From Hysterangium stoloniferum (lineage: Eukaryota > Basidiomycota > Agaricomycetes > Hysterangiales > Hysterangiaceae), in assembly GCA_015178975.1 (NCBI GenBank), contig WHVD01000007.1:310001-374000 (forward strand): 64,000 bases of DNA, in the 5' to 3' direction. Made by a program: the position numbers and the translations under genes. A model generated the notes under the pieces. That model was given only the letters and a program-made list of their open reading frames with translations. It was not told the origin of the DNA and searched no databases. Of the stretch, positions 6 through 53,392 are shown one piece after another. Position 1 is the first letter of the stretch, and each line of letters opens with the position of its first letter.

Positions 6-1945
6 TCATAGTACTATCCCTCCTCCTGGTTCGGATTGTGTATTGGTGTTACCGAAGAGAAATTGCGGTGGCGCAATGGATGAAACAAGAGCATCGGCAC
101 GCCAAACATGGTCCTCCAACACTGATCTGCAGTGTAAATTAAATGTTACGCACACACCAGTGAACGGTGTGGCGATGACACAAAGGAAGGAATGGGCCGC
201 GACAGTTACGCGTTTAAGGCAGCGACCGAGGTATTGATCGTTGATTGAACCGCGCATTGCGTCACAATGTGGAAGGAGACGAGAGAGAATGGGGATGATA
301 TTGAGGCTGCGCATTGTGGTACACGCGGATTAGATGTCGGAAGATCCAGCTATCAGCTTCAGAGTCACATCAATCAGGTCTTCGCCTGAAAACAGGAGCA
401 ATAAATTTGGACGGTTGTGTGTCAGAATCAGACTGGTCGGATATTTTCATGGGCGGATATGAGATGGTGCTGGAAGGTAAAGCATTGTCAACATACCTTA
501 GGAGGGGTTCAATGAGCGAAGAAACCACATTCAGCTGATGGATCTGATCCGTGCGAAGCGTTCTGTCGTTGAAGAAGGTTTCTAGGGCCTTGGTATTATG
601 CGACAGTGAATTTAACGTGCTGTCATCGATATAAAGTGTCAAGGACGCTATAAGGAGGTGTGCGTCGTCCACTATAACTTCAAAACATCTCCAGCGATAT
701 CTTGAAACCAGGCATCTTGGTGTATGCAACACACCAGAAGCTGCATAGGAGTTCCAAACAAGGAATGTCGATGTGAGTGATTTTGTCTATTGTGGGTTTG
801 GTGGGCCAGATGAAATGATGTGATGTCGCGACGCACGGTTGTGCCCAGAATTCAATGCAACGTCTAATCGCAGTGATCTCCTCTACAGACAGCTGACGCA
901 GGTGGCAAGTTTGTTCCACGAGATACCCAAGCTCGGCGAGGAGGAAGGTACGTTCACAAAAGGATGTTAGATATCCGGCGATCTGTAGAATGAATGCCGA
1001 CGCAACCTCATTCAGGTTGGTGTGTAGCGGTGATTTGATGACAGCATTGTAAAGCGAAGACGTAATCGCAGTTGATGGCCGATCTACATCTCCCCATCGA
1101 GCGCCGGGACACAAATTGAAGGCCCAAGCCAATTCAGCATATGAATTCCCGCACATCTCTAAGACAACTGACGCCTGTTGTCGAATTCGATGCGGGTAAG
1201 TGGGTCTAGAATGGTGAGTATTTTGAGTGTACTCAATGATTGGCGCTGAAGTATCCCCACCTCATTTAGTCAATGGTCTCTTGAATTAATATCCCGATTC
1301 TTCGCAGAGTGAGATGCTTTCGTATTAACTTCTTAAAGGCCCTATCGTCTCCATACGCCATTCGCTTGTATATCATCAACTTTGCCATCAGTGCAGCTGT
1401 CTTTGCGTAGTAAAGAACATTCCTCCCAACCCTTTCCAAACCGACTCCACAGTAATACCCGGGGCTGATTTCAACACTTGAAGATGAACTCTCCGGAGAG
1501 GAGACGAGTCCCCAGTCAATGTCATGCCTACGATATGGACTGAGTTTGGACGTGGCGTTGGTGGATCTCCCTCGTGTCTTAATATTATTCGGTGGGTCAT
1601 GGCAATTTATCTGTCCTTGGCACTGAAAACATCCGCTCTGTGAACAGTCTCCACCAAAAGGATGTTTCGTTTGCGATTCCTCCACACCACCTTCCACGTC
1701 TTCTTCCGACAGTGCTATGTGCTGGTCGTCGTCATATGCTGGGCAACATAAACAGGACCCACGTTCGAGACAGCTACATCGCCCTCCAAGCTTCATCAGA
1801 GGTCTTTCCTTCATTCCAGTTTCATCGATCCCCTGTCGTTCCATCCTCAATACAGCCGGGGAAACCAAGGGTTTAGCCAGTCAACCTCTTGGAGGAGGGA
1901 GAGGGCATCCTGCTCACTCGGAGCTATCTCGTTGGACGTTGACAT
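6..1945 (-). pseudogene. Repeat-family gene copy 1 (type EIA), degraded
   Basis: A near full-length copy of the unrecognised five-exon family, read right to left from an ATG at 1943-1945. All five exon regions can be followed: exon 1 with the family start MSTSNEIAPS, exon 2 with SPGYYCGVGLERVGRNVLYY, exon 3 with CPGARWGDVDRPSTAITSS, exon 4 near 370-732, exon 5 at 6-314. It is broken. A 1-bp loss in the exon 1 stretch after DWL shifts the frame, and a TAA replaces a Leu codon just before the exon 2 donor near 1275. The usual stop after PDIS is lost, so the last frame runs to position 6. Its closest relative is the plus-strand copy at 27.1-29.1 kb, in the equivalent slot of the middle block. 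Confidence 0.7.
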
Positions 1946-2480
1946 TGGTGGGTAGCAGTAGTACTCGGACCGGGATGGAATGCTGCGCCTTTAAGCTGAA
2001 GTTAGCCCGAGAGTCGATTTCCAAGCATAGCATTGTGGCCCTGCTCCTCAGGATACACAGCGTTCAATCCTATCCTGTCTTTGCAAACAACTTGAGGTCC
2101 CACTTATCCTTCTTGAATAATAAAGCCAGGATATCTTCAAGTTACCTTACCCTCTTTACACATATTCCTTCCATTTCAGCAGATGATCTCCCGCAGACAA
2201 CACACATGCCAGCTAAGAATAAATTGACAGGCCGTCACCGCGCAATATGCTACCTTCCGAGTTCTTCAGTGCTAGCTTTCAGGGAAATCCAGCTCTCCCG
2301 TCAAAAGTGACATCTCCACGGATAGAATATGTCAGTGCAGTGGAAGCTATCCATGGCAGTGCTTATTGGGTACAGCCCCAGGCGCTTCCGACTCCGGCTT
2401 CGTGGTCAATTCTTTCATACTTGCAAGCAATCCATTCCAACAATTCATTACTGATGGTAATGGGCGTCATCCTTTAATAT
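1946..2480 (-). promoter_or_regulatory. Upstream block of copy 1 (shared 5' module)
   Basis: This about 500-bp block precedes the ATG of copy 1. It recurs before the other family genes (for example 26.7-27.1, 46.9-47.4, 49.7-50.2 and the right edge of the window near 63.85-64.0 kb). It is conserved between copies but has no convincing long reading frame. The part nearest the ATG carries the recurrent words GCATTGTGGC and ACCCACCA directly before ATG. A promoter and 5' leader role is inferred from position only; no TATA box was identified. Confidence 0.45.
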
Positions 2481-4141
2481 CCTTCTTTGTGCCGACTCCG
2501 TCCGGTTTCTATCAACAAATTGTGCGTGCAATCATTAGTCAATGACTATTAATTACACGCTAGTCTTATTATTACCCTGACCTTCTCAGTAACCTAATTC
2601 GCCCCAGGCTCACCTTATGTATTAAACACTTGTCAATCCGACTCGACAATGTCAAGGTAGATGAAACATTGTGAGACACCATACCTTGACCTCTTGGAGA
2701 GCTCTTCGGGTTTGTAAAGATTCACCATACTCTATATGCGTTTACGTACCCTTTTCCTGCAAACTTGTCCGCCCCTTCGAAGCCGATCGCTCCATTGTCC
2801 CTGGTGACTTCACAAAGGCTGTTGTAGCAATCTTTATTCCCACCCACTGTAGTGATTTCTATCGTATCCGGGGGTATTATGCCAGTTGACCCATTCACGT
2901 TCACTTGTTTTCATGATTCTTGTGTTAGGACTGAATTAGTGCTGTGAGTCTATATCAACTTCTAAGCTCACATCCGTTGGTCCACCGTTGCTAGAACCAT
3001 ATTTGGCCCGCCTTGAAAACATTATACTTGATGGAGGGCCTGAAGCATGATCGATATTTTCTCAGAATGTCCATCTCAAAGCTATGTCATGCTCTCCGCA
3101 GCAGCATTTCGATTTCACTATCCCTACACGCTCTGTACACGCAATGATTAAGGCTTGATCTGTGCGTTCGTTTCGGCCATCATCTCTTCTCCTGACTATT
3201 CACTTTATTTCTCCAAAGGCTAGTGTTTTTCCAGGAGGCTAAACCCCCTTCGAACATTCTTATGGCTCACATCAGGATTGAACCACCTTGAATTGCACTC
3301 ATGCTGCAGTATACTTTCTTGTCTCATTTTAACATTCAGGACCGCTCACCTTTTTCAGAAAAGGTGGTAATTATACTTCATGCAACGTACTCCAACTGAG
3401 ATGAAAGGAGATATCCACTCGGTTTGCACTGAGCGCCATTCCTGTTTATCAACACGTTTGTGCCATTCATAGTCCAGCTATTGGCAAGAACTCTTGAATA
3501 TTTTCGGACTCACAAATATATAGAACGTGTGTATAGCATCAACAAGAAGCTGCCAACCCCACACGTGCGGTAAAAAGTGACTATATGCGCTCTTTAATTC
3601 GCTCAAACTATGTAGCTTTACACAAATTAGAAATATTTCCAAAAGGGGAGCTAAGTAAAGAGTAATAGTATTTTTATTCCTCCTGATGCGCAGATCGTCG
3701 ACGGCAGTGGGCATATGGCAGCTACAAATAGTTTGATGAGCCTTCGCCACATAATGTGGGAACATCCGCTTCGTATTCAATTCTTTCAGAATTCCAATTT
3801 CGATAATTCTTTGCTGAGGGTAAATTGGCGTAACTAGTGAATATGCCTAATTATACGGTCCATCTAAGTGAAGTCAGCTAACAAGAGTAAAGCCCGTAGG
3901 GAAAGTATCAGGCGCCGAGCGGCGAAGTTTGGAAATAGAAGTCCACGGCACGAGATATGATTCCACAAAGCCAGCACATAGAGCGATCGTGGTAGAAAAA
4001 CTTCATGCTATGAATCGTACGCCTCCTGTAATGATAACTTGGATAATAATCACTTGACACGACCTGATTAGGCCTGAGACCTTTAGAGAGATAATGACGA
4101 CAACTTTGAATCGCGAGGAATCATGAAATGGTCGGCGAGAG
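2481..4141. repeat. Shared spacer modules between copies 1 and 2
   Basis: No supported gene. The stretch is a chain of modules found again in inverted order at 61.9-63.8 kb and partly at 45.6-46.9 kb: a block around 2520-2900, a block around 2940-3470, and the gene 3' flank block around 3480-3690. Short ORFs occur (3478-3780 minus, 2671-2889 plus), but their reading frames drift between copies, so I treat them as chance frames in homologous DNA. Confidence 0.55.
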
Positions 4142-4327
4142 ATGCCAAAAGGTACTCGGACGCCAAGGAACGTATTCTCCCGGATAATGGCGACAACATG
4201 TCTCACTCTGATCCTTGTTTGCGGTACTCGGAACACGAATCCCGGCAGGTGCTCATCCCTACCTCATCAAATCAATGATCTCTTGAATTGCTATTCACAG
4301 TATTGGCACCGTGAGATAGCTGAGTAG
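4142..4327 (+). pseudogene. Relic of the small hydrophobic-segment ORF family
   Basis: 61 codons with the segment NVFSRIMATTCLTLILVCG, matching the N-terminus of the longer ORFs at 11158-11613 (plus), 19747-20100 (minus) and 52978-53331 (minus). After the hydrophobic part it runs into antisense sequence of gene copy 2 and stops. The mirrored relic lies at 61772-62005 (minus). Probably a truncated remnant at a recombination junction. Confidence 0.35.
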
Positions 4328-4966
4328 AAACTTGTCAATGACGTTCTGGCCTTCCCATGGTCCACGCGTCATTCGCTCGTATATCATCAACTTGGTCATT
4401 CGGGAAACTTTATTTGCGCTGTAAAGCACTTTATTCCAACCATTTGCAAACCGACTCCACAGTAATACCCGGGGAAAATTTCCACACTTGGCGACGAGCT
4501 ATCCGGCGATGAGACAACCCCAGTCTTTGTCATACTGATGACATGGACTGACTTTGGATGTGGCGTTGGTGGATCTCCCTCGTATCTTAATATTATTAGG
4601 TGGGTCATCGCCAGTTCTCTCTCTTTGAGTCTGAAAAAATCCGGTCTGTACACAGGGTAAAGAAAAAATATTTGCTCTTGCGCACCCATTCCTCGACCCA
4701 ACCTTCCACTCTTCTTCAGACGGTGGTATGTGCTAGTAGTCATCGGGTGCTAGGTAACATAAACCGTTCTCGCGATGGAGACAGCCACATCGTTCTCGAA
4801 TATTAATCAGAGATCGGTCCCTCATTTCGGTCTCATTTATCTCCTGGCGTTCCAAACTCAATATAGCCGGTGAAACCAATGGTTGTAGCCACTCAACCTC
4901 TTGCAGGAGGCGTTCAGCCCGTCCGATATCGTGGCTGCTCAGAGTCGTCGCATTTGAAGTTGACAT
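4257..4966 (-). pseudogene. Repeat-family gene copy 2 (type ATT), exons 1-2 only
   Basis: Starts at an ATG ending at 4966 (MSTSNATTLSSHDIGRAERL) and keeps exon 1 and most of exon 2 (THLIILRYEGDPP in one frame, PGYYCGVGL in the other). Exon 1 meets a stop after LAPDDY. Exons 3-5 are missing: family similarity ends near 4257, where the sequence passes into the small-ORF relic. The mirrored copy at 61269-61886 has almost the same truncation, so the deletion predates the block duplication. Confidence 0.65.
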
Positions 4967-5034
4967 TGGTTGGTAACAGATTGTTGTGAAATCGAAGAGG
5001 ACGCTGCGATTTCAAGGTGCAGGCATAATGGGAA

Positions 5035-7036
5035 CTATTTTCCAGGTATAGCATTGTGGCGGTGCTTTATACAGGATACCCAGCGTTTCATCCCTTCAAT
5101 GGGTAGAGCAAGCGCATCGGCAGGCCAACCATGATCCTTTAACACAGATGTGCAGTTCGAATTAGAGGTTACCGACACGCCGGTAAAAGGTGTGGCGATG
5201 ACGGAAAGGAGGGAATGACCCATGAGGTGTAATCTTTCAAAGCGGATACGGGTGGATTGATCGTTGATGGGGCCATGCATTGTGTCACAATTTGGGAGAA
5301 GACGATCGAGAATCGCGATTATATTGAGGCTGCGCACTGTGGTACACGCGGATTCTATGTCAGAAGATCCAGCTATCAGCTTCAGAGTAACGTCAATCAG
5401 GTCTTCGCCTGACCACAGGAGCCAGGAATTTGGACGCTTGTGTGTCAGAATCAGACTGGTAGGATATGTTCATGGGCAGATATGAGGTGATGCTGGAAGG
5501 TAGAGCATCGGCAACATACCTTAGGAGGGGTTCAATGAGCGAATAAATCACATTAAACTGGTTGATATAATCCATGCGAAGGCTGCTGTTGTCGAAGAAG
5601 GTTTGCAGGGACCAGATATCATTCTGCAGTGACCACGATATCTCCTCATCGATATGAGAAGTCAAGGACGCTATATGGCGGTTGGTGTCGTCCACTAGAA
5701 CCTTCAATACATCTCCAGTAATATATCGAAACCAGCGATCTTGGCTCATGCAACGCGCGAGAAGTTGTATGGCAGATTCATGCAATAAATTTCGGCATTG
5801 GGAATTTTGTCTGTTATGGTTTTGATGGGCGGCAGGATAAAATGATGTGATGTCGGGACGCACGGTTGTCCCCAGAATTCAATGCAACCTCTGATGGTAG
5901 TGAGGTCCTCTACAGACAGTTGACGCACGTGGGAGATCACTTGCACGAGATACACAAGTTCGTCAACGAGGAGGGGATATCGATGGCATGACAAATATCG
6001 TGCGATTTGTAGAATAAACGTCGACGCAACCTCATTCAGGTTGTTATGTAGCGGTGATTTGATTACAGTGTTATAAAGCAATGACGTAATTGCAGTCGAT
6101 GACCGATCTGTATCTTCCCATCGAGCGCCGGGACACCAGTAGAAGGCCGAAGCCAAATATTTCATAAGCATGGCACTGTTACCGTCCTTCCGCCATATAT
6201 CATCTGAAATCCTGACCCCCCCTAAGACCACTGACGCCTGTTGTCGAATTCGGTGTGGGTATATGGGTCTATACACATTGAGTAAGTTGGTCCTATGTGT
6301 TTAATGATTGATGCCATTGTATCCCTACCTCAATAAATCAATGGTCTCTTGAATTACTATTCCGAGTCTTGGCAGAGTGAGGTGCTTTTGTAGGAACTTG
6401 TTAAAGGGCTTGTCGTCTCCATGAACCATTCGCTTGTATACCATTAACTTTGCCATCAGTGCAGCTGTCTTTGCGTTGTAAAGTACAATCCTCCCAACCC
6501 TTTCCAAACCGACTCTACAATAATACCCCGGCTCGATTTTAATACTTGAAGATGGCGATGAGCTCTCATACAGTGAGACCACTCCCCAGTCCACGGCATG
6601 ACTGTAGTATGGACTGAGGTTGGATGTGGCGATGGTGGATCTACCTCCCATTGGAATAATAATCGGTGGATCATGACAATTTGTCTCTCCTAGGAACTGA
6701 ATGCTTCTAGTTTTTCAACAGTTACATACAAGGCTATCTCATTTTGCGTACCCATTCCTCAACCCAAACCTCCACATCTTCTGCAGACAATGGGATATGC
6801 TGGTTGTCTTCTGGAACTCGATAGCACAAACCGTGCCCATGTAAGATGCAGCTCCATCTTTCTCGAAGCTTTACTCGAAATCTTTCCCTCATTCCCGTGT
6901 CAATGATCTCCTCCCGTTCTTCTGAGCCCAATGCCGCTGGCGAAACCAATGGTTGTAGCCACTCAACCTCTTGTAGGAGGGTTTCGGCCGGTCCGATATC
7001 GTGGCTGATCAGAGTCGTCTCGGTTGAAGTTGACAT
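5035..7036 (-). CDS. Apparently intact five-exon member of the unrecognised repeat family, 589 aa
   Basis: Best-preserved member. Exons on the minus strand: 7036-6752, 6696-6329, 6268-5864, 5810-5520, 5455-5035. Introns are 55, 60, 53 and 64 bp; donors read GTACGC, GTAGGG, GTGCGT and GTATGT; acceptors end in CAG or TAG. Phases agree at every junction and there is no internal stop. Exon 1 (1-95) has a charged helix and a Cys pair (RWSCILHGHGLCY). Exon 2 (96-217) holds CHDPP and GYYCRVGLERVGR. Exon 3 (219-352) holds CPGARW at 263-268. Exon 4 (354-449) looks helical. Exon 5 (451-589) holds SSDIESAC and HSLLSVIATPFTG. No signal peptide or clear membrane span. I recognise no domain. The last residues differ from other copies because a junction near 5097 joins exon 5 directly to the region upstream of copy 2; usual members end PDIS. 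The model is inferred from paralogue comparison; function unknown. Confidence 0.7.
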
Positions 7037-7500
7037 GGGTGGGTAGCAGGTGGTTGTAACACCGGAAGGGGATGCTGCACATTTAAGGTACAATTATCAG
7101 GGGAATGAATTTCAAGGCATAGCATTGTGGCGGTGCTTTACACAGGATACCCATCGTTTGATCCTTTCGTTTAAACAACTTGAAGTCCCTCAACCTCCTT
7201 GGTTCCTACAGGCTCTACACGATACTCTCAGGTTCATTCACTATGTTATACTCTAAGTCCTTACTCCTCAACAGACCGTCTGTGGCAGAGAACACATTGG
7301 TAGCTACGAATGGTTTGATCATCCTTCACCCCATAATGTGGCAGCTTCTGACTTATTACGCGCTAGAGGTTTCGGAAATTCATCTTTACGTTATAAGTGA
7401 GATCTCCATTGATAGAATATGTAAATGCAGTGGATACTATCCATGACACAAAGCGCCCCAGGTACAGCCTCTGGCGCCTTCCTCTCGGGCTATGTCTAAC
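7037..7500 (-). promoter_or_regulatory. Upstream region of the intact gene
   Basis: Sequence directly before the ATG at 7036, conserved with the regions before the copies at 58.3 and 30.2 kb. It has the same GCATTGTGGC word about 100 bp upstream and a Kozak-like ACCCACCC before ATG. Antisense ORFs at 7050-7256 and 7180-7446 are not preserved as proteins. It is the best candidate promoter in the window because the gene it serves is open, but this rests on position and conservation only. Confidence 0.4.
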
Positions 7501-8584
7501 GGAAATATGCACTTCGTGTTAAATTCGGAATTACAATAAGCAACCCATTTCACTAATTATTTACTTAGGCTAATTGGCGGCGAACATGAATATGCCTGTT
7601 TGTGGCGAGTCCGACATCTTTTCATTAACACATTGTGCATGTAATCCATATTCAGTCATAATTAATCACACTGGTATGATCACACGGTGCTTCTGAGTGG
7701 AGTAAAATTTGCCGCAGGCTCATGTTAATTATGTGTGTGACGCGACAATGTCACGGTAGATCGTGGATTGTGAGGCAGCACAGCTTGACCTCTTTTAGGC
7801 AGAGCTCGACGGGTTTGTAAAGATTGACCATTCTCGCTATGATTTGCGTGAAATTTTCTTGACACCTTGTCTACCTCTACGACGCTGCCCACTCCATTAT
7901 CCCCTGGATGTTCACAAAGGTTGGTGTAGTAACCTTTATTCCTTCCCACTATAGTGATTCGGTATCGCATCAGGGCTTGCTACGTCAGTTCAACCTTTCA
8001 CTTTCACTTTGTAAATAATCTTGCGCTCTGAATCAATGAGTAGTGTAAGACCGTATGAACTTCTAAGCTCGCATCTGCGGTGCCACTTCGCCTAGAGCCA
8101 CGATATGGGCTAACTAGCCAACAGAAAACTTCATAGCAGGGTCATGGTTGAACCGACTTGAATTCAATTTTGCTCCAGGATACTTTCTGTTCTCATTTCT
8201 ACATGCAGGACCACCCATAGTTGCTACCCAGAACAAATTTCCACTCATATCCGGAACATACGACGTCTCACAGTAGAAGGCCAGAAAAGGTGGTTAACAT
8301 GGCTCCAACCGATATGAAAAGATGTGGGTGTTGATTTCTTGACCTCTCATCCGTCACCTGTCCACTTGTTCCGTGCATTCAAATAACATTAATTCCGTCA
8401 TACTGACTTCATATAAAGCAAAGGCACGATGGGCGGCCGAGCGTATCCTCTCGACTTGCACGGAGCGCCACTCCTGTGCGTGCATACATGCGTGCCATGC
8501 ATTGTCGGGCTATCAGTGAGAACCCTTTAATATTGTTTACTTTGATCGAGAATTTGACGATGCACAATATTCTTTTGAGTTGGC
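7501..8584. repeat. Spacer module with unoccupied LTR target site
   Basis: Matches 22.9-24.4 kb and 56.4-57.8 kb in inverted orientation. Around 7735-7760 it contains the uninterrupted palindromic target GTGACGCGACAATGTCAC, which is occupied by LTRs in the other two blocks. The ORF 7725-7970 (minus, VGRNKGYYTNLCEHPGDNGV) is conserved in all three blocks (23683-23907 and 57076-57276) but short and of unknown meaning. Confidence 0.5.
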
Positions 8585-9727
8585 ATGCTCCAGGCTGTTC
8601 CAGAGGCTATACCATGTGCATGTGCAGGCGCGCATTCTAGATTACGGGGACTTCAATCCGTGAGCAGCCCGGATCGAATACCACTTAACTCATACTTCGT
8701 CTTCTTCAAGTCCCTAATGCTTCTTCCTCTTCATTGTCCTCCCTCAAGCCTCAGCCACAGAATATCGGTCATATACAGGTGTGTCACCCGGTAAGCTTTT
8801 GTATGCCTAACGTGGACCCATTTGCTATCAAGTGGTCCGGGATTCCGGCTTCCTCGCACTTCTCTTGCATCGCTAGCCATCAGGTGTGCATTATATCGGT
8901 CTCAAATGTGCCTTTGGGTGCTCGTGTGACCTTCTTGCAATATTAGCGATGGTATTTTTCCTGAAGTCGAATCCCATGGGAGTGGGGCGCTCCCGCATCG
9001 GGTCAAGGGTTTGAATAGAGCGAAATACCGAATGGAATGCGCCCAACGCCGTTGCTGTTCGTTTTCAAGGCCCCTTCAGTTAATCCAGACTTTGTGCCGA
9101 ATGATAGCAAATCCGAAGATTGAACATAGATTTGGAATATTAGGTGAATCTGATCGAGATAACCTTCCGCATGGATTACTGAATTGTCGGTGTTGTTTGC
9201 TGCTCTTCAATGGCTTGCTTCATGCTATCCCAACTAACTGACACCCTTCTTTCTTTGAAAACTCAGAATGGTATTCTAGCCACGACTACAACCTGCCAAT
9301 ATATGTAACATGTGTATAGCATCAACGAGAAGCTGCCAGGAACACAAAGGAGGTAAGAAGTGCCTATATGCGCTCATTAATTCGCTCAAACTATGTAGCT
9401 TTAAGTTAATTAAGAGTAATAGTGCCATTCTTCCTCTTGGTTCGCATAGTGCCTACGTTCGTGGAGGTGAAGACCATATCCGGACTCTCCTGTGCATTCT
9501 GTGCCTATCGTGGCTTAAATGGCAAGTTGGCAATTTTAAGTAATGAAAAGCATGTGAAGTCGTCGACCCTGCAACAGATTACCCGACGCAGGATAAAAAT
9601 GGAGGTTTGTTGGGAACATGTAAGCAAAAGCCAAGGTGGCTAATGTCTTTACAGCGTCTCACCAGTGTTGCATACTCCTTACAGACCACCTATTACACCC
9701 AACCATTAGATCTCCACCTCTCTTCAT
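8585..9727. repeat. Long-module segment with short conserved ORFs
   Basis: Homologous and inverted to 21.6-22.7 kb and 55.1-56.2 kb. Several 60-77 codon frames (8585-8794, 8734-8946, 9011-9241, 9422-9643, all plus) keep nearly the same translation in the three blocks. For example, 9011-9241 shares CRMIANPKIEHRFGILGESD with 22038-22247 and 55557-55766. They overlap or abut in different frames and may be exons of one older gene, but I could not derive a splice model and give no function. Confidence 0.4.
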
Positions 9728-10039
9728 ATGAGGATAGTGACAGCAAGCTGTAATTGGTCTTGGTCTTCTTTTACTTTCACTAGTCGTCCTGTGGCAACCG
9801 ACGAGTACACTGGCAATGCAAAGCTATCTTCAACCCTCGTATTCGTCCGGCCTCATGATCCTGACTTCTACGCAGGATGGGAAGCCGCGGCCGGCGCTCA
9901 CCCCCACACAAGTGCACCACCTCACATCTTCGTCCCCCCCGCCCGTTTTCACTCAACCACGTTGAGCAGTAGTATGGACACGTCGCAGGCCAAGTCACAA
10001 TCAGTGCTACGCTCCTGCGTTTGCCAGGTTGAGTTGTAG
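9728..10039 (+). CDS. Conserved ORF of about 103 codons, left-block copy
   Basis: One of three copies (others 21230-21541 and 54758-55069, both minus). The translation is proline- and histidine-containing and locally GC-rich, with PHDPDFYAGWEAAAGAHPHT. This copy ends slightly differently because of a small indel after TTLSSS; the other two share the ending HVAGQVTISATLLRLPG. No known domain. The retained frame could reflect coding or simply recent duplication. A gene fragment captured by the repeat module is possible. Confidence 0.3.
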   Translation: MRIVTASCNWSWSSFTFTSRPVATDEYTGNAKLSSTLVFVRPHDPDFYAGWEAAAGAHPHTSAPPHIFVPPARFHSTTLSSSMDTSQAKSQSVLRSCVCQVEL

Positions 10040-10438
10040 TTATCTGTCTTCTACCCGCAGCCTGGACATCGATCGCTATGGAAGCCCTGATATGATTGGA
10101 TTTTGTCATGGTTATGCTCCCTGTTTCCCTCGCTTGACCGGCACAGGTCATGATGCGAAAGCCATATATCGCACTAATTCTTTTAATATATTTGCGAAGT
10201 GAATATATTTTAATGATTTGAAGATGGCTGGTATGTGTGGATTAGTACATAATTACATATATTATTACGTACAAGTCGAGACATTGACGCCTGGGTATCT
10301 AACTTGACGTCCCTGACCCGCAGTGTGTATTTACATATTTGACAATTAAAGAGTGGCTCCTGGTTTTGTAGCGGAGCGAATTGACCAGGTGTGCCTTTCC
10401 AGGTGATGACATTAGATAATACGAGAGTCTAAATCGAC
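10040..10438. repeat. AT-rich conserved spacer between two module ORFs
   Basis: No gene is supported. The middle part (about 10170-10360) is AT-rich, with TATATT and TAATTACATATATTATT runs, and is nearly identical to 20.9-21.1 kb and 54.45-54.62 kb in inverse orientation. It lies between the 3' ends of two converging ORFs, so it may hold 3' ends; I see no defined signal. Confidence 0.35.
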
Positions 10439-10858
10439 TTATGACTCCGGGAAATAGAAGAGGAATACCTTCCTACATGGGTGTTTGGTCGCCAGCGTGT
10501 GGCTGTCTCCACCACCTGGACGGAGATGAGTGAGTGTCGACATTGAATTCATTAACAAGTGGTCGGTACCATTAGCCTGATGCAGTCGTTTAAATGTGTT
10601 ATAGCTGTTAAGAACGAGACTAATCATTAAACACTCAACGATCGATTTTTCAATTGTCGCTGTACTCCTCTCGCGCGATGATTGGCTATAACGATCCATA
10701 GGAGTACGGGATTGTAGAACCTTGCCGAGGCCCATCCCGTCAGCCATAATAAAGCTGTATAGAGCATAGTGGGTCATAGAAATTAAGACAGACATATGGA
10801 CAAACAAGTACCACATAAGCACCCTTGCATATTGGTATTCGACAAGCATTCCAGTCAT
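10439..10858 (-). pseudogene. RAD54/SNF2-like helicase motif fragment, left block
   Basis: 139-codon ORF with FIMADGMGLGKVLQ at residues 36-49 (about 10712-10753). This closely resembles SNF2-family motif I (ADEMGLGKT), whose GxGK part binds ATP. Downstream TATIEKSIVECLMISLVLNS parallels the RAD54 stretch TIEKC..CPSSLV.NW. RAD54 proteins are nuclear ATPases of homologous recombination. The resemblance covers only some 60 residues, the Thr after GK is Val, a shift separates motif I from the TIEK part in sister copies, and the remaining helicase motifs are absent. I read it as a captured, decayed fragment. A TATTTATA element (TATA box on minus) lies about 50 bp before the ATG. Confidence 0.45.
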
Positions 10859-10905
10859 AAAACGTTGGCGGATAGTTCAGATCCTGACGGGGTTCAGATT
10901 GGGTC

Positions 10906-10913
10906 TATTTATA
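10906..10913 (-). promoter_or_regulatory. TATA-like element before the helicase fragment
   Basis: TATAAATA on the minus strand, 48 bp before the ATG at 10858. The same element at the same distance occurs at 20352-20359 in the middle block. The intergenic stretch to 11158 lies between divergent ORFs. Confidence 0.3.
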
Positions 10914-11157
10914 CCTAGTAACTTGACACCGACCTGATGCCTAACAATATTATAGAATACCTTCGAATATAATTAACATAGCTTTGGGTAATATCTCTGT
11001 CATCCCTTCCAAGACTTTCTTCCCTGTAAATACATACAATCCCCAGGAGTTCACTCATAGATACACGCCAAGTTATATAGTTTAATATGTACTGTGGGGT
11101 GCGCAAGTTCCCCACAATGACGATAACTCTGAATCTCCAGGAAGCGTACAATGGTCG

Positions 11158-11613
11158 GTGAAAGATGGGACACGGTGGTCAGACGCGAGGAACGTATTCA
11201 CCTGGATAATGGCGACTACATGTCTCACACTACTCCTTGTTTGCGGAAATGGAAAACAAAAGCCATCTAGGTGCTCAAAGAGGTTCAATTTAAATACAAG
11301 AAACAACTCGGTCGAATTGAAGACTCATCACTGCGATGGTTTTGCGCGCTGGGAGGAAGACGGCGATGTTCCAGACGCTCCACCATATCGAGGGGCAAGC
11401 TATATCACGGGGACTTCCCTCCGTGAGCCGGGCAGATCAAATACCAATTTGCTCATCCATCCTCTTCTTCAAGACATCACGTGTCCTTGGTGCTTCTTCC
11501 TCTTCATATTCCTACGACAAAAAGCAATGACACTTGTGGTGAAGAATAAGAAAGCCGCGGTCACAGCATATCGGTCATCACATGTGTCTCCAGGAAGGCT
11601 TGGTTATGTCTAA
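11158..11613 (+). CDS. ORF with N-terminal hydrophobic segment, left block
   Basis: 151 codons. Residues about 13-31 form a hydrophobic run (VFTWIMATTCLTLLLVCG) followed by a basic, Cys-containing part (KPSRCSKRF) and DGFARWEEDGDVPDAPPYRG. Copies at 19747-20100 and 52978-53331 are 117 codons and begin MGHGAQTPR; here the start differs and the frame continues into the downstream segment. The layout would fit a signal anchor or signal peptide, but the product is unrecognised and the 3' part may belong to further exons. Divergently placed to the helicase fragment. Confidence 0.35.
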   Translation: MKDGTRWSDARNVFTWIMATTCLTLLLVCGNGKQKPSRCSKRFNLNTRNNSVELKTHHCDGFARWEEDGDVPDAPPYRGASYITGTSLREPGRSNTNLLIHPLLQDITCPWCFFLFIFLRQKAMTLVVKNKKAAVTAYRSSHVSPGRLGYV

Positions 11614-11906
11614 TTTAGAACCGTTTGACATCAAGTCGTCATGGCATCTAAATTCCTCTCAATTTTCCTGGATCGCTAAGCAGCAGTTATAGATCTACCC
11701 GCTCTCAAAAGTGGTTTCGGGTGCTCATTTGACTTCTTTGGAATATTCCCGAATGTACCTAGGATCCCATGGGAGCGAAGCACTCCCGTATCGGGTAAAG
11801 GTTTTGAACGGAGAGAAATACGTTATGAAATCCGCCTAACGCCGTCCGTGTACAGCCCCCTGCTTTTATTCCAGAGTTTTGTGCCTCATGATGGCCAATA
11901 AGGATA

Positions 11907-12200
11907 TTGAACATACTAGATGAAACTGACCGAGATAATCGTCGGTATGAATTAGTGAATGATCGTCGCGGGTGGGCTTTGGTGGTCTTCAATGACTTGT
12001 TTCATGCTATCTTAACTGACATGCTTCTTTCTTTGAGACCTCCCAGTGGCATTCTATTTGAAGTGATTCTCGATGATAAATTGGATCTTATTCTTGCGAC
12101 TACTAGGGTTCACGAATATATACAAGGTCAGTATAGCATCAACAAAAGCTGCCAAGCATGTAAAGAGGTTACAAAGTGGCTATATGTGCTCTTAAATTGA
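11907..12200 (+). CDS. Conserved ORF following the hydrophobic-segment ORF
   Basis: 97 codons with ILDETDRDNRRYELVNDRRG and FNDLFHAILTDM, closely matched by 19048-19356 (minus). A distant relative of the same stretch sits inside the module at 9011-9241 (ESDRDNLPHGL...FNGLLHAIPTN), so the module itself has an internal duplication. It could be a 3' exon of the ORF at 11158. The frame is broken in the right block. Unknown function. Confidence 0.28.
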   Translation: MNILDETDRDNRRYELVNDRRGWALVVFNDLFHAILTDMLLSLRPPSGILFEVILDDKLDLILATTRVHEYIQGQYSINKSCQACKEVTKWLYVLLN

Positions 12201-12319
12201 CTTAAACTAGGCAACGTTAAATTACTGGTCAACATTGCCAAAAGGCGAGTTATATCAAGAGTAATACTACTATCCCTTCTCCTGGGTAGGATAAATTGGT
12301 TGGTATTATCGAAGAGAAA
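12201..12319 (-). repeat. 3' flank module of copy 4
   Basis: The block directly after the stop of family genes, recognised by ACTCTTGAT/ACTATTACTCTTTA and the words ACATAGTTTGAGCGAATT and TTGGCAGCTTCTCGTTGATG on the coding-strand side. Found after most copies (for example 3480-3690, 25440-25620, 45590-45760, 52150-52330, 60240-60420, 62640-62800). Possibly a 3' UTR or terminator region; no specific signal proven. Confidence 0.4.
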
Positions 12320-14272
12320 TCATGATATATCGTGCGGAATGGATGGAACAAGTGTCTCGGCTGGCCAGTCATGGTCCTCCAACACTGATCTGGAGTTTGA
12401 ATTGGATGTTACGCGCACGCCGGTGAAAGGTGTGGCGATGACCCAAAGGAAGGAGTGAGCCGCCAGGTTTAGTCCTTCAAAGTAGATACCGAGGCGTTGA
12501 TAGGTGATTGAGCCAAGTATTGCGTGGCAATGTGGAAGAATACGAGCGAGAATGGCGCTTATATCAAGGTTGCGGACTGTGGTACACGCGGATTCGGTGT
12601 CAGAAGATGCAGGTATCAGCTTCAGAGTGACCTTAATTAGTTCCTCCCCTGAAAAGAGGAGCGATAAATAATAATTCGTGTGTCATAATCAGACTAGTAG
12701 GATATTTTAATGGGTGGATTTGAGATGATGCTGGAAGGCAACGATTTTTCAATATACCTTAGGAGGGGCTCGACGACCAAAGAAACCACATACAGCTAGT
12801 TTATCTGATCCGTGAGGAATGTTCGGTCAGGGAAGAAGGTTTTCAGAGCCAGGTAATCACGCCGCAATGCATCAATTGTGTCCCTATCATTATGAAACGT
12901 CCAGGACGGTATATGGATGTTTCCGTCGGCCACTGTGAGCTTCCATACATCTTTAGCAATATATGAAAACAAGGAAACTTGGTGCAAGCAAGAAACGAAA
13001 AGCTTTATAGGACATTTATCCAAGGAAAATCGGTGTGGGGAATTTTGGCTGTAGTGGTTTTGGTGAGCAGGAAGAAATGATGTGATGTCGTGACGCACGG
13101 TTGTAACCAGAATTCAATACAACCTCTGATCGCAGTGCGCTCCTCTACAGACAGTTGACGGACGTGGTAGATGTTTTTCACAATATACACAAGTTCCTCA
13201 AAGAGGAAGGGATATGGATGGCTTGACAAATATCGTGCGATTTGTAGGATAAATGTCGAGGCAACATTATCCACGTTGGTGTGTAGAGGTGACTTGATTA
13301 CAGCATTGTAAAGCGATGATGTAATTCCAGTTGATCTCCGATCTACATCTGACCATCGAGCGCCGGGACACCAGTAGAAGGCCGAACCCAAATATGCCAT
13401 AAGGTTGGCAGTGCGATCTTCTGTCCTCCGCTGTATACCTCTTGAATTCCAGAACGACCCTAAGACATCCCACGCCTGTTTTTGAATTCGACGCGGGTAA
13501 GTGGGCCTAGAAAAACGTGAGTATTCTGAGTGTATTCAATGTTTGGCTGTGAGGTATGCCCACCTAATTAAGTCGATGGTCTCTTGAATTACTATTCCGA
13601 GTCTTGGAAGAGTGAGATGCTTCTGGAGGAACTTGCTACAGGCCCTGTCGTCTCCATACACCATTCGCTTGTATATCATTAACTTTGCCATCAGTGTAGC
13701 TGTCTTTGCAGTGTAGAGCACATTCCTCCCAACATTTTCCAAACCGACTCTACAGAAATACCCCGGCCCAATAGTGATACTTGAAGATATCGATGAGCTC
13801 TCAACCAGTGAGACCGCACCCCAGTCGACGTCATGACTGTCATGTGGGTGGAGGTTGGATGTGGCGTTAGTGGATCTACCTGGCATATTAATAATCGTCG
13901 GTGGATCATGACACGTTGTCTCTCCTCGCAACTGAAAGCGGCCATTTTTTCAACAGTGTACATGAAAGGCTGTCTCATGTTGCGCACCCATTCCTCAACC
14001 CACACTTCCACATCGTCTTTAGACAGTGGTATATGCTCGTCATCTTCGGGAACTCGATAGCACACACCGTCCCCATGTTCTATGCAACTCCATCGGTATC
14101 GAAGCTTGATCCGCAATCTTTCCCTTATCCCAGCGTCAATGATCTCCTCCCGCTCTTCTGAGCTCAATGCAGCTGGGGAGAGAAATGGTTGTAACCACTC
14201 AACCTTTTGTAAGAGGCGTTCAGCCCGTCCGATATCGTGGCCGCTCAGAGTCGTTTCGTTTGAAGTTGACAT
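12320..14272 (-). pseudogene. Repeat-family gene copy 4 (type ETT), nearly intact
   Basis: ATG at 14270-14272 (MSTSNETTLSGHDIGRAERL). Exons 1-3 are open with the expected junctions (VEEW then intron 1; DLIR then GTGGGC; CCC-split Pro before exon 4). Exon 4 has an in-frame TAG at the family position INQL (Gln to stop) near 12797. Exon 5 lacks 2 bp in its ACACAC run. So there are at least two breaks near the 3' end. Unspliced, exon 1 reads through intron 1 into the alternative frame of exon 2, giving a 193-codon ORF (13691-14272), unique among the copies. Expected stop after HDIS at 12320-12322. Exons 3-5 pair best with the copy at 50.2-52.1 kb. Confidence 0.65.
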
Positions 14273-16256
14273 TGGTGGGTAGCAGGTTGTTGTGATACAG
14301 GGAGCGGATTCTGCGCTTTTAAGGTGCAGATATCAGGTAAATGAATTTCTAGCTATAGCATTGTGGCTGTGCTTTATACAGGATACACAGCGTGTCATCC
14401 CTTCCTTTCAAATAAATTGACGCCCCTCAAGTGTTTCATTCGTATAGCCTCCAGGATACTCCCAGGTTCACTCACTATGGTATACAGTAATTCCTGACTC
14501 TTCAAAAGATCGTCTACAGCAGAGAGCACATATGGCAGCCACGAAAGGTTTGATGAGCCTTCACCGCATAATGTGGCAACTTCCGACTTCTTGAGTGGTA
14601 GATTTTTGGGCAATCCGGGTTTTCCGTTTGTTGAGAAGTGACATCATGTTTGAAAGAATATGTCAATGCAGTGATGCTATCCATGACAGTACAGCCTCGG
14701 GCGCTTCGTGTTCAATTCTTTCCGCATTCCAATTTCGATAATTCTTCATTTAGGTTAATTGGCGTCCATCGTGAATATGCCTTTTTATGGGGAGTCCCAC
14801 AGCTCTTCATTCCCAAATTGTGCATGTAATCTATATTTAGTCATAACTAATTACACGTTACTATTACTACACCGCCCTTCTAGTATAGTAATTTTCTACT
14901 AACACGGGTAAAGCCCGGATGGAAAGCAAAAGGCGTCGAGCGGCGAAGTGTAGAAAATAAAAGTTTGCGGCACCGAGATATGATTCCACAAAGCCAGGAC
15001 ACAAAGTGACAGTGGTAGGGACACTTCATGCTATGAACACTATGCCTGCCGTAACGAGAACTTGGACGATAGCCACCCGACTCCCCGATGAGGTCTAAAA
15101 ACCTTAGAGACATAATGACGAGAACTATCAATTGCTAGGACTCGTGAACTGGTCGGTGAGATATGGCACAAGGTGCTCCGACCCCGAGGAACATATTGTC
15201 CTGGATCATAGTGACCACATGTCTCAATCTGGTCCTTGTTTGCGGTACTCGGACAAAAATTCCAGCAGGTGCTCAAAAATGTTCCGTTTGAAGAAAATAA
15301 ATGAGTTGGTCAAATTGGAAACTGATGAGTAAAATGGTTCCAAATGCTGTGAGGAAGCCCGCTAGCTGGGATAGTCCAAGGCATTCCAGTCCGGGCGCAT
15401 TCTAGATTACCGGGACTTTCCTCCGTGAACCGTCCCGATCAAATGTCAATTGACAGAGTCTTCATCTTCTTCAACAGATCCTGTGTCCTTGGTGCTTGCT
15501 CCTCTTCATTTTTCTACCTCAAGAATTTTCAGACAACCAATCAACTCCACATGTGATCAAATATATTCAAGCTGCGGGGACAGAATATCGGTGATATACA
15601 GGTGTGTTACCCGGAAGGCGTTGATATATCTAATTCAGAACCGTTTTTATCAAGTGGCCATGGCATCTAGACTCCTAGCACGTCTTCTGTATCGCCAAGC
15701 CAGTTACGACACAACACCGGTGTCAAAAGCGCCTCGGGGTGCTCTTTTGATATTCAGTGCAATATTCACGACTGTTTTCATTTGAACTTGAATCCCATGG
15801 GAACGAGGCGCTCCAGCGTCAGATAAATGTTTCGAATGGAGAGAAATACTTTATGGAATCCGCTGAACGCCATCCCGGTACGTTCTAAAGGCCCCTCCTT
15901 TTATTCCGGGGTTTTGTGCCTCATGATAGCCGATCTCGAGATTGAACATAGACTTTAAATATTAGATGAATCTGACCGAGATAAAGCTTGCCATGGATTA
16001 GTAAGTGATTGGTGTAGGTGTTCTTTGCTTTTCTTCATTGACCTTTTTATGCTATTCCAACTCACTGACACGAATAGCACGGTGATGGGGCTGACGTTTG
16101 AGAATTATCAGTGCTATTCTATTTGGACTGGTTGTCGCTCATAAATCAGAGGCGATTCTAGCCACGCCTGAGGCTCGCGAATATTATTCTAAATGTGTAT
16201 GGCATGAACGAGAGTCTACCAAAAATTGGCGATGGTAAAAAGCTATAAGGTACACA
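14273..16256. repeat. Mixed spacer between copies 4 and 5
   Basis: No supported gene. It is a patchwork: the upstream block of copy 4 (14273-14800), a more diverged version of the hydrophobic-ORF region (about 15000-15360), and diverged long-module sequence (about 15380-16200, compare 8.6-9.3 kb). Similarity to other modules is visibly lower than between the three main blocks, suggesting an older copy. ORFs such as 15450-15785 are not conserved. Confidence 0.45.
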
Positions 16257-17467
16257 TCAAAGCGTCCTCCCTGGCGATTTTGTCTGTTATGATTTTCGTG
16301 AACATGGTGATAATATGTGCTCGTGCGACGCATGGTTGTAACCGGAATTCAAAGCAATCTCCGATTGCGGTGAGCTCCTGTACAGACAGCTGACGCACAT
16401 GGCAGATATTTTCCACGATATTGCTAAGGCCGGCAACGAGTAGGGTTTGGTGATCGGATGAGAAACATCGTGCAACCTGTGTGATAAATGTGCAAACTCT
16501 TCCAAGTTGGCGTGGAGCTGTGCTTTGAGCAAAGCGATGACGTATTTGCAGTCGATGTCCGATCACTATCTGCCCATCGAGCGCCGGGACACCAAATGAA
16601 GGCCAAAGCCAAATATGTGATAAGCTGACCTTGGGTCGTCCACTGCATATCACTCGAATTCCAGAATCCCCTAATACCACTAAGGGCTGTTGTCGAAATC
16701 GAGGCGGGCAAGTGGGTCTAGAAGACATGAGTATTGTGAGTGTATTCACTCCTTGACACTGTGTTATCCCTGCCTCATTAGATCAACGCTCTCTTGAATG
16801 ACTATTCCCAATCGTGGCTGCGTGACGGGCCTGAGTAGAAAATTGTCAACGCCGTTCTGGCCTTCCCATGGTCCACACGTCATTCGTTCGTATATCATCA
16901 ACTTTGTCATTAGCGAAGCTCTCTTTGCGCTGTAAAGCACTTTCATCGCAACCCTGTCCAAACCGACTGCACAGGAATACCCAGGACTAATTTCCACACT
17001 GGACAATGAGCTATCCGGCGAGGAGACGACTCCCCAAGCCATGTCATACGTGCGAGATGGACTGAGTATGCATGTGGCGTGGGCGGATCTCCCTCGTCTC
17101 TTGATATTATTCGGTGGTTCGTGGTAATTTCTCTCTACTGAAAACATCCTGTCTGTGAACAGTGTACATAAAAAGGACATTTCGTTTCACGCACCCATTC
17201 CTCCGCACAAAATCCGACGTCTTCTTTGGAAAGTGGTATGTGCTGGTCGTCATTGGCTACTCGGTGACATAAACAGTGCCGATGTTCGAGACAGCTAGAA
17301 CACTCCCGAATCTTCATCCGGGATCTTTCGCTCATTCCCCTTTCATTTATCTGCTGCCGTTCCATGCTCAATACAGCTGGGGAAACCAAGGGTTGTAGCC
17401 ACTCAACCTCTTGTAGAAGGGATAGGATATCCTGTCTCCTCAGAGCTATCTCGGTGGAGGTTGACAT
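16257..17467 (-). pseudogene. Repeat-family gene copy 5, diverged and 3'-truncated
   Basis: ATG ending at 17467 (MSTSTEIALRRQDILSLLQE). Exon 1 keeps SKEDVGFCAEEW, exon 2 lies at about 16780-17140 (SPGYSCAVGLDRVAMKVLYS), exon 3 at 16320-16750 with several small indels around CPGARW. Similarity ends near 16257, just inside exon 4. Substitutions relative to other copies are numerous, so it belongs to an older split of the family. Exon 2 carries a local insertion (GPWEGQNGVDNF) not seen elsewhere. Confidence 0.6.
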
Positions 17468-17839
17468 TGGTAGGTAGCAGTTGTAATAATCCCGGAAGGG
17501 AATTCTGCGCTTTTTAGGTGCAGTTAGCCCGCGAGTCGACTTCCAGGCTTAGGATTGTGGCCGTGCTCCTACCCGTTCCATCCTTTCCTTTTAACCAACT
17601 TGAAGGCCCACTAATCCTTCTTCTATAATACAGGCAGGATACTCTCACGTTCCATTACCATTTTTACACTTACTCCTTAGACTTAATCAGATCATCCACC
17701 GCGGAAAATACACATGGCGGCTGAGAATTAATTTAGAGGCGGTCACCGCATAATGGGCTAACTTCCGAGTTCTTGAGCGGTAGATTTCATGGGAATCCAT
17801 TTTTCCGTCAGAAGCGACATCTCCATGTATATAATATGT
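17468..17839 (-). promoter_or_regulatory. Upstream block of copy 5, ending at an inversion junction
   Basis: Diverged form of the shared upstream module of family genes on the minus strand. At about 17840 it passes abruptly into plus-strand exon 3 sequence of copy 6. This is therefore the centre where minus-oriented units meet plus-oriented units. Confidence 0.4.
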
Positions 17840-18932
17840 ATACAGCGGAACGGAGGACGCATTGCCAAGCTTATGGCATCTGTTTGTTCAGCATTCTCCT
17901 GGTCTCCCGGCGCTCGATGGGGAGATAGAGATCGGTTATCAACTGCAATTACGTCATCGCTTACAATGCTGTCATCAAATCACCGTTGCACACCAACGTG
18001 GATGAGGTTTCTTCGACATTCATTCTGCAAATCGCCGGATATTTATTATCCTGTTGTCAAAGTACCCTCCTCCTCGGCGACATTGGGTACGTCGTGGAGA
18101 ATCTGTCCCACGTGCGTCAATTGTTTGTAGAGGAGCTCACGGCGCTCAGAGGTTGTATTGAGTTGTTGTTACAACCGTGCGTCGCGACATCACATCATTT
18201 CTTCCTGCCCGCCCACCAAAACCACAACAGGCAAAATTCCCCACACCGACTTTCCTGGGATGAATGTCCTATACAACTTCTCGTTTCTTGCATGCGCCAA
18301 GATGAGGTATTGCTGGAGATGTATTGAAGGTCATAGTGGCCGACACACACCTGCATATAGCGTCCTTGGCGTTTGATAGGGATACAATTGATTCATTGTG
18401 GCGTAATATCCGGACTCTGAAAACCTTTTTCGCCGACAGAACACTCCTCACGGCTAATATCAACCAGATGAATGTGGTTTCTTCGCTCGTCGAGCCCCTC
18501 CTAAGGTATATTGACAATATTTGCCTTCCAGCATCAACTCATATCCACCCATTATAATATCCTACTAGTCTGATTCTGACACACACGAAGTACAATTTAT
18601 CGCTCCTCTGGTCAGGCGGGGAACTAATTAAGCTGATAGCTGCATCTTCTGATATCGAATCTGCGTGTACCACAGTCCGCAACCTTGATATAAGCGCCAT
18701 TATCGCTCGTATTCATTCACATTGCGACGTAATGCTTGGCTCAATCACCCATCAATGGCTCGGTATCTTCCTTGAAGAACTAACCTTCGCGGCTCACTCC
18801 CTCCTTTGTGTCATCACCACACCTTTCGCCGGTGTGTGTGTGACATTCAATTAAAATTCCAGATCAGTGTTGGAGGACCATGACGGGCTAGCCGATACAC
18901 TTGTTCCATCCATTCCGCACGATATATCATGA
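17840..18932 (+). pseudogene. Repeat-family gene copy 6, exons 3-5 only
   Basis: Begins inside exon 3 (GIAKLMASVCSAFSWSPGARW region) and continues through exon 4 (about 18230-18510) and exon 5 to a TGA at 18930-18932 after HDIS. Exons 1-2 are absent because of the junction at about 17840. Exon 3 is shifted, a small loss in exon 4 (DEVLLEMY region) breaks the frame, and exon 5 has AATTAA giving a stop where others read Asn-Ser. It occupies the slot of copies 4 and 14 in the middle block. Confidence 0.6.
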
Positions 18933-19746
18933 TTTCTCTTTGATCACACCAACCCAATTTATCCTACCCAGGAGAAGGGATAGTAGTATTACTCTTGATA
19001 TAACTCGCCGCTTGGCAATGTTGACCAGTAATTTAAAGTTGCCTAGTTTAAGTCAATTTAAGAGAACATATAGCCACTTTGTACCGTCGTTTGTTGATGC
19101 TATACTGACCTTGTATATATTCGTGAGCCCTAGTAGTCGCAAGAATAAGATCCAATTTATCATCGAGAATCACTTCAAATTGAATGCCACTGGGAGGTCT
19201 CAAAGAACGTAGCATGTCAGTTAAGATAGCATGAAACAAGTCATTGAAGAACAGCAAAGCCCACCCGCAACGATCATTCACTAATCCATGCCGACGATTA
19301 TCTCCGTCAGTTTCATCTAGTATGTTCAATATCTTTATTGCCATCATGAGGCACAAAATTCTGGAATAAAAGAAGGGGGCTGTACAAGGTACACGGACGG
19401 CGTTAGGCGGATTTCATAACGTATTTCTCTCCGTTCCAAACCTTGACCCGATACGGGAGTGCTTCGCTCCCATGTGATCCTACTTGAAACAGGTACATTC
19501 GGGAATATTCTAAAGAAGGTCAAATGAGCACCCGAAACCACTTTTGAGAGCGGGTAGATCTATAACTGCTGCTTACCGATACAGGAAAATTTTGAGAGGA
19601 ATTTAGATACCATGATGACTTGATGGCAAACGGTTCAAAATTAGATATAACAAAGCCTTCCGGGAGACACACATGTGATGACCGATATGCTGTGACCGCG
19701 GCTTGCTTATCCTTCGTCACAAGTGTCATTGCTTTTTGTCGGGTAA
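18933..19746 (-). repeat. 3' flank and long-module start, middle block
   Basis: Collinear (inverted) with 11.6-12.3 kb and collinear with 52.1-52.97 kb. It contains the 3' flank module (18960-19140) and two short conserved frames on the minus strand, 19048-19356 (ILNILDETDGDNRRHGLVND) and 19344-19541, plus 19520-19789. These may be exons downstream of the ORF at 19747-20100; I could not join them with confidence. Confidence 0.4.
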
Positions 19747-20100
19747 TTATTGAGGTAGGAATATGAAGAGGAAGAAGCACCAAGGACACATCATGTCTTG
19801 AAGATGGATGATCAAATTGGTATTTGATCTGCCCGGCTCACGGAGGGAAGTCCCCGTAATATAGCTTGCCCCTCGATATGGTGGAGCGTCTGGAACATCG
19901 CCGTCTTCCTCCCAGCGCGCAAAACCATCACAGTGATGAGTCTTCAATTCGACCAAGTTGTTTCTTGTATTTAAATGGAACCTCTTTGAGCACCTAGATG
20001 GCTGTTCTTTCCCATTACCGCAACCAAGGCGTAGTGTGACACATGTAGTCGCCAGGATCCAGGTGAATACCTCCCTCGGCGTCTGAGCACCGTGTCCCAT
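19747..20100 (-). CDS. ORF with N-terminal hydrophobic segment, middle block
   Basis: 117 codons starting MGHGAQTPREVFTWILATTC, with a hydrophobic run at about residues 12-30 and then a basic Cys-containing region. Nearly identical to 52978-53331; related to 11158-11613. The shared 5' end supports the start ATG. Unrecognised. Candidate signal anchor or secreted product, or the first exon of a longer gene. Confidence 0.35.
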   Translation of the reverse strand: MGHGAQTPREVFTWILATTCVTLRLGCGNGKEQPSRCSKRFHLNTRNNLVELKTHHCDGFARWEEDGDVPDAPPYRGASYITGTSLREPGRSNTNLIIHLQDMMCPWCFFLFIFLPQ

Positions 20101-20351
20101 CTTTCACCGACCATTGTACGCTTCCTGGAGATTCAAAGTTCTCGTCATTGTGGGGAACTTGCGCAGCCCACAGTACATATTAAAATATATAACTTGGCGT
20201 GTATCCATAAGTGAACTCCTGGGGATTATATGTATTTACAGGGAAGAAAGTCTTGGAAGGGATGACGGAGATATTACCCAAAGCTATGTTAATTATATTC
20301 GAAGGTATTCTATAATATTTTCAGGCATTAGGTCGGTTTCAAGTTACTAGG

Positions 20352-53331: not shown

Positions 53332-53392
53332 ATTTCACCGACCATTGTACGCTTCCTGGAGATTCAGAGTTCTCGTCATTGTGGGGAACTTG

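Follow-up and report, generated by a model that had tools for sequence, protein, structure and literature searches.

A probable birth-and-death cluster of a five-exon gene family in Hysterangium stoloniferum, with one open copy fused to the upstream DNA of its neighbour

A cluster of one protein-coding gene family, with introns of about 50–64 bp and no named domain, lies in the 64,000 nucleotides of Hysterangium stoloniferum DNA analysed here (the window; GenBank assembly GCA_015178975.1, contig WHVD01000007.1, positions 310,001 to 374,000 of the forward strand), and we judge it probable that this is a degenerating birth-and-death cluster. Almost every copy is broken, and this probably holds also for the one with an open frame, the reference copy (REF) at 5035-7036. 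An earlier note on this DNA had left the choice between a lineage-specific host family and a mobile unit; the former is the better of the two. The process by which the cluster grew and decayed is ordinary.

Results

Exon-intron plan and inventory of the copies

The REF gene lies on the minus strand, with its ATG at 7036, and its five exons form a 589-codon open frame across four GT-AG introns. The model was built by trying GT..AG introns of 44–89 bp around the four frame breaks of REF; 18 joins exceeded 540 codons, the longest being that of 589 codons, from the ATG at 7036 to a stop at 5037-5035. The features of REF are the following.

7036-6752, 6696-6329, 6268-5864, 5810-5520 and 5455-5035 (including the stop), minus strand: the five exons of the 589-codon model (longest splice model)
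6751-6697, 6328-6269, 5863-5811 and 5519-5456, minus strand: the four introns (splice model)
5098-7036, minus strand: native part of REF, 569 codons, in which exon 5 is 5455-5098 (splice model, with the frames, GT, AG and intron positions common to the copies)
5035-5097, minus strand: non-native 3' tail of the REF frame, 20 codons and the stop, within the upstream region of K4 (the 3' matches of the family end at 5097-5098)
7037-7751, minus strand: upstream region of REF, common to other copies (5098-7751 against 60214-57566 at 94.8%)

The REF introns are 55, 60, 53 and 64 bp long, with phases 0, 2, 2 and 2 as given by the exon lengths, and all eight splice dinucleotides are intact. Five exons with agreeing phases and GT/AG borders, no stop and introns of 53–64 bp had been described in the earlier note, and the longest splice model gives the same figures.

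Besides REF, a BLAST search placed 16 other gene pieces in the window, 17 in all; two short upstream fragments (3691-3759 and 62508-62622) were not counted as copies.

74-2101, minus strand: K1, all five exons, broken
4255-4966, minus strand: K4, exons 1-2, broken; the region upstream of it extends to 5097
12320-14272, minus strand: K12, five exons, with a stop in exon 4 and a frameshift in exon 5; mosaic, REF-like at the 5' side and K50-like at the 3' side
16277-17467, minus strand: K16, exons 1-3, broken
17838-18914, plus strand: K18, exons 3-5, broken
24481-25423, plus strand: K24, exons 3-5 with the native 3' end, broken
26514-26682, plus strand: K26, exon 1 fragment, downstream of K24
27090-29026, plus strand: K27, all five exons, broken
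30198-32027, plus strand: K30, internally gapped parts of the five exons, broken
33760-34100, minus strand: K34, exon 5 fragment
47249-47469, plus strand: K47, upstream and exon 1 fragment
47460-48961, minus strand: K48, from the end of exon 2 into exon 5, with an internal insertion, broken
48988-49648, minus strand: K49, from the end of exon 3 into exon 5, broken
50219-52140, plus strand: K50, all five exons, exon 3 with two frameshift deletions
58293-60232, plus strand: K58, at 95% the nearest relative of REF; keeps the native 3' end, disrupted by two frameshifts and two stops
61269-61892, plus strand: K61, exons 1-2, the equivalent of K4; downstream of K58 in the undeleted arrangement

The DNA alignment of the copies covers 14 of the 17 pieces (K26, K34 and K47 were left out). 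An exon frameshift or stop was found in 13 of the 13 aligned copies other than REF, some of the single frameshift calls being alignment-dependent, and the earlier estimate of about 15 broken relatives is close to the number placed. These relatives had also been said to keep the intron positions of REF, and across the alignment 40 of the 43 donor sites present read GT and all 40 acceptor sites present read AG, with introns 1 to 4 measuring 53–57, 55–60, 50–54 and 63–64 bp, respectively. The length of intron 3 (53 nt in REF and K58, 50 nt in nine copies, 54 nt in K18) was also considered as evidence of splicing, an argument that we dropped because the main length difference is a multiple of 3.

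Coding character of the exons

The five-exon family is genuine, and before the decay of the copies its exons were evolving as protein sequence, which upholds the earlier reading of a protein-coding family. Reading the 13 aligned relatives in the frame of the model gives 17 stops among 5089 ungapped codons; the two shifted frames give 305 of 5096 and 265 of 5089 (REF, selected for its open frame, was not counted). A second count covered codons of 12 copies that have two states differing at one position, those with more states being left out: stops amounted to 1 of 156 in frame, against 18 of 136 and 9 of 146 in the shifted frames, and third positions take 74 of the 155 sense changes.

Pairs of diverged copies, which differ at about 14–30% of sites, have an average omega of 0.65 in the true frame (48 pairs); shifting the forward frame raises it to 0.94 and 1.02. 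The reverse-strand frames gave 0.85, 1.06 and 0.70, so that omega alone is not decisive; the value of 0.70 probably belongs to the reverse frame that keeps third positions third. A maximum-likelihood codon model of 11 copies gave an omega of 0.82–0.84, and a model with omega fixed at 1 was worse by 3.92 log units; the constraint is, on average, weak. The ratio of nonsynonymous to synonymous changes did not differ between singleton and shared changes (p = 0.51), and stronger selection on the old branches is therefore not shown by this test. Since the copies share ancestry, the coding and selection counts are not independent. The rows used were 11 of 14 for the frame control (52 of 55 true-frame pairs passed the size limit), 12 of 14 for the codon-change count and 11 of 14 for the codon tree. 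Indel lengths were uninformative as a coding test: 34 were multiples of 3 and 33 were not in exons, with 11 and 16, respectively, in introns.

The 3' end of REF is a chimera

Nine other copies reach the 3' end of the gene. In eight of them (K1, K12, K18, K24, K27, K30, K50 and K58) the match to REF ends at 5097-5098, and in the ninth, K34, it ends at 5115. Beyond this point, REF 5097-5000 matches the upstream regions of eight other copies (for example, 26383-26480 at 93% and 61138-61235 at 91%). The multiple alignment shows REF following K58 as far as ...CTACCCATT and continuing from there with what lies before exon 1 in other copies. The last 20 codons of the frame and its stop therefore do not belong to the gene itself; as read from the alignment, the native ending, P[H/P]DIS and a stop, is kept in five other copies (K12, K18, K24, K50 and K58).

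The undeleted arrangement is seen in K58-K61, where K58 keeps its own stop and 3' flank, its homology to K12 extends as far as 60541, and the upstream homology of K61 sets in at 60549. The K24-K26 block is also undeleted, with about 0.98 kb between 25406 and 26383. On the REF side, the equivalents of 60214 and 61138 are directly joined. Set against K58-K61, this join shows that a deletion of about 0.92 kb took the last codons of REF, its 3' flank and the distal upstream region of K4, leaving a frame that reads 20 codons into the upstream DNA of the neighbour. REF had been described as an apparently whole member of the family, a description that does not hold for a copy that is truncated at its 3' end and ends in 20 codons foreign to the family. 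The related claim of one open copy among many dead ones is right as to the open frame of REF and the broken state of all other aligned copies; the open copy, however, is 3'-truncated. A deletion can thus make a truncated copy look whole to a reader who goes by frames.

Recent substitutions in REF

REF and K58 have a dN of 0.046, a dS of 0.055 and an omega of 0.83, with a noncoding K of 0.036. The other recent pairs gave omegas of 1.02 (REF-K24), 1.43 (K58-K24), 0.84 (K27-K1) and 0.57 (K4-K61, on 15 differences, 5 synonymous and 10 nonsynonymous). In the comparison of synonymous and nonsynonymous change between copies, which the earlier note had proposed, recent pairs are mostly near neutral, and diverged pairs average 0.65. 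When polarised, 7 synonymous and 14 nonsynonymous changes fall on the REF branch and 13 and 29 on the K58 branch, with 17 REF-K58 changes unpolarised. The recent substitutions of REF look near neutral, not clearly different from neutral, and since the counts on its branch are small, they leave room for some constraint. In simulations with substitutions only, without indels, the open frame survived 20, 30 and 40 random substitutions with a probability of 0.44, 0.30 and 0.20, respectively; the open frame of REF is therefore weak evidence of function, and no evidence of death either.

These data bear on the reading of REF as a working, expressed gene whose C-terminus is slightly changed, all other copies being its dead paralogues, which we regard as rather unlikely. 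The uninterrupted five-exon frame with its full set of splice dinucleotides, the upstream region that REF has in common with other copies and the breakage of the 13 other aligned copies all speak for it, and a foreign tail of 20 residues need not kill the protein. Yet the native end and the 3' flank are deleted, the divergence from K58 is near neutral, and 20–40 random substitutions leave the frame open in 20–44% of the simulations. In addition, a TATAAA-like motif upstream of K12 and K4 is TGTAAA in REF in the alignment. Because REF has no stop or frameshift in its 569 native codons and 13 of 13 others are broken, it may have stayed functional longer than they did.

The protein

At the curated cut-off, Pfam-A gave no match for the exon pieces or the whole 589-aa product, in line with the earlier note, which had recognised no domain. 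Sequence searches of the PDB with profiles of all five exons, as the earlier note had proposed, and with the whole native part returned nothing credible. Of 55 exon pieces, the protein alignments (A1-A5) exclude 15, of which 13 contain stops and two match poorly. The AlphaFold model of exon 5 is all-helical at medium confidence (pLDDT 70), and the comparison with known folds, also proposed earlier, found nothing better than an E of 1.7 in Foldseek for this model. The model of exon 3 is mostly helical and poor (pLDDT 48), and was not used for a fold search. No similarity that would suggest a solenoid repeat was found between exons 3, 4 and 5. The native 569 residues have a pI of 5.9 and a mass of 64.6 kDa; the highest 19-residue hydropathy is 1.35, and the N-terminus is not hydrophobic. 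Going by these predictions, the product would probably be intracellular and alpha-helical; a helical protein of scaffold or binding type inside the cell is our guess, offered with low confidence.

No relative was found among IMG/VR contigs and prokaryotic genomes, non-eukaryotic collections that are uninformative for a eukaryotic gene. Rfam and tRNA searches gave no hits, and nothing came out of a scan for bacterial promoters and terminators, which is not apt for this DNA. The titles and abstract openings of the literature searched do not name the family, and from such partial texts we do not claim its absence from print.

Growth of the cluster by blocks and exchange between copies

Self-comparison of the window revealed a large inverted duplication, in which 2321-14690 corresponds piecewise and in reverse to 64000-49809. 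The identities along it are 95.1% (2321-3772), 96.2% (4382-5097), 94.8% (5098-7751), 93.8% (8143-11109) and 82.1% (11104-14690). Together with a further, partial block, three blocks can be delimited, which are mostly 91–97% alike, and 82–86% alike in one segment.

2.3-14.7 kb: block A
17.8-26.7 kb: block B, partial, in the same orientation as the block at 50-64 kb
49.8-64.0 kb: block C

Block B is 91.7% identical to 8143-13438; its segment 25060-26682 matches 59865-61437 at 91.5%, and 17838-20161 matches 51035-53392 at 86.0%. Inside the blocks, gene neighbours lie head to tail (K24-K26 and K58-K61). The local amplification of the family, as first noted, is evident in the number of pieces and took place by duplication of copies as blocks.

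Some copies also bear marks of exchange. K12 is nearest to REF or K58 over its upstream part and on through the first half of exon 2, and nearest to K50 over the remainder; its intron 2 differs by 3.5% from that of K50 and by 45.6% from that of REF. A single 60-bp window, where exon 5 begins, contains 21 differences between K1 and K27; K1 shares the base of REF at 15 of these sites and K27 at 3. This cluster of differences is consistent with conversion of K1 by a REF-type copy. Exons differ more than introns and upstream DNA in three of five pairs (p = 3.9e-5, 0.0052 and 0.022; the others 0.49 and 0.57). In K27/K1, the pair with the lowest p value (3.9e-5), 127 of 1645 exon sites differ against 8 of 362 noncoding sites, and dS is 0.091 against a noncoding divergence of 0.022. 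Positive selection was considered for this excess and set aside, since the pair is high in synonymous change as well and its differences fall close together; conversion would account for the exon excess of this pair without it.

The excess has a place in another reading, that of a rapidly diversifying family of recognition or allorecognition type, kept polymorphic by conversion and now decaying at this locus, which we consider improbable. Such a family could be expected from the high amino-acid divergence of the diverged copies (dN 0.14–0.33), the mosaic copies and the likely conversion tract, the richness in pseudogenes and the exon excess in three of five pairs. Against this, no recognition domain was found, the omega of diverged pairs never exceeds 1 (the highest is 0.99), and in K27/K1 the raised dS and the clustering fit conversion better than positive selection. 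We likewise see little chance that the window holds the decayed arm of a taxon-restricted, unclassified family that has working members elsewhere in the genome and is diversified by conversion, for instance in self/non-self recognition, with REF and its new 20-residue tail as a newly forming variant and not a dead gene.

That the gene is the cargo or driver of an undescribed mobile element amplified by transposition, as the earlier note had suggested, is very improbable: there are many copies of similar anatomy with shared flanking DNA, and transposon debris in the window (the solo-LTR-like insertion at 53393), but the copies start and stop at many points, some of them inside exons, homology upstream extends beyond 1 kb in some pairs (74-2974 against 5097-8075) and stops early in others, neighbouring copies were duplicated together as blocks, and no transposase, polymerase or integrase domain was found at the Pfam cut-off in the exons or the 589-aa product. 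A search of four full copies for inverted repeats gave 12 inverted pairs, none of them marking the ends of a copy. The two strongest, of 49 and 27 nt in the K50 region, come from the inverted neighbour fragment K49 and its junction, paired with K50; the remaining ones are imperfect and 14–27 nt long, those in the K12, K58 and K27 regions 14–19 nt. We reject the mobile unit because no constant ends, no terminal repeats in the four full copies searched and no enzyme domains were found; block duplication explains the amplification.

Other elements in the window

One block copy carries a 344-bp insertion at 53393-53736, whose equivalent sites at 11104-11109 and 20156-20161 are without it. It starts with TGTTGG, ends with AACA and has ACTTG on both flanks, and it looks like a solo LTR. 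Two further insertions, at 57283-57565 and 23899-24167, occupy the same site of two duplicated blocks in opposite orientation; the first is flanked by ACATTGT on both sides, the second has a shortened left copy, and the equivalent site at 7735-7765 is empty. They represent a small unclassified element. The frames at 34038-35398 on the minus strand are presumably of the kind typical of hAT transposases of mushroom-forming fungi; the pieces tried were not recognised by Pfam or PDB search. A second repeat family, of about 0.6–1.1 kb, has several copies that adjoin the 3' flank of a gene copy.

8632-9278, 11113-12056, 15111-16071, 19182-20161, 21871-22647, 32604-33451, 52236-53392 and 55520-56158: second repeat family (approximate limits)

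In a stretch of the window that has no gene copies, a 417-bp unit is present in three tandem copies at 40834-42082 (90% matches). The 21-bp unit ACGACCCACGACCTCCGACGT is repeated in tandem at 36150-36246 (4.6 copies, 100% matches).

Discussion

The history of the cluster may be pictured as follows. An older phase of head-to-tail tandem duplication, suggested by the head-to-tail neighbours within the blocks, would have made the diverged copies; more recently, the multi-gene blocks A, B and C were duplicated and inverted. Sequence exchange between copies produced the REF-type/K50-type mosaic of K12 and, as is likely, the conversion in K1, and the deletion at the end of REF removed its native terminus. 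No copy in the window appears to be under evident selection today, and REF is, most likely, either marginal or disabled not long ago, a gene in which the frame has yet to meet a stop.

The window records, in compact form, the growth and death of a gene cluster by inverted block duplication, exchange between copies and deletion. It would deserve more interest only if intact, constrained members of the family exist elsewhere.

Among known systems, the all-helical model of exon 5 recalls the alpha-helical solenoid proteins of the ARM/HEAT type; in contrast to these, the family has no ARM/HEAT Pfam match, no Foldseek match of its exon 5 model better than an E of 1.7 and no repeat similarity among exons 3, 4 and 5. 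Gene-carrying transposable elements, such as DNA transposons and Helitrons, likewise occur in many copies with shared flanks; here, however, the four full copies lack terminal repeats, constant ends and an enzyme domain are missing, and it is multi-gene blocks that move. The multigene clusters that evolve by birth and death, for example those of the olfactory receptors, differ from the present case, in which the protein lacks any known domain and none of the copies in the window can be called functional with certainty. They share with the present cluster the gathering of homologous pieces, here 17, at one locus under one exon-intron plan, as well as segmental duplication, head-to-tail neighbours, exchange between copies, and many pseudogenes beside one open copy.
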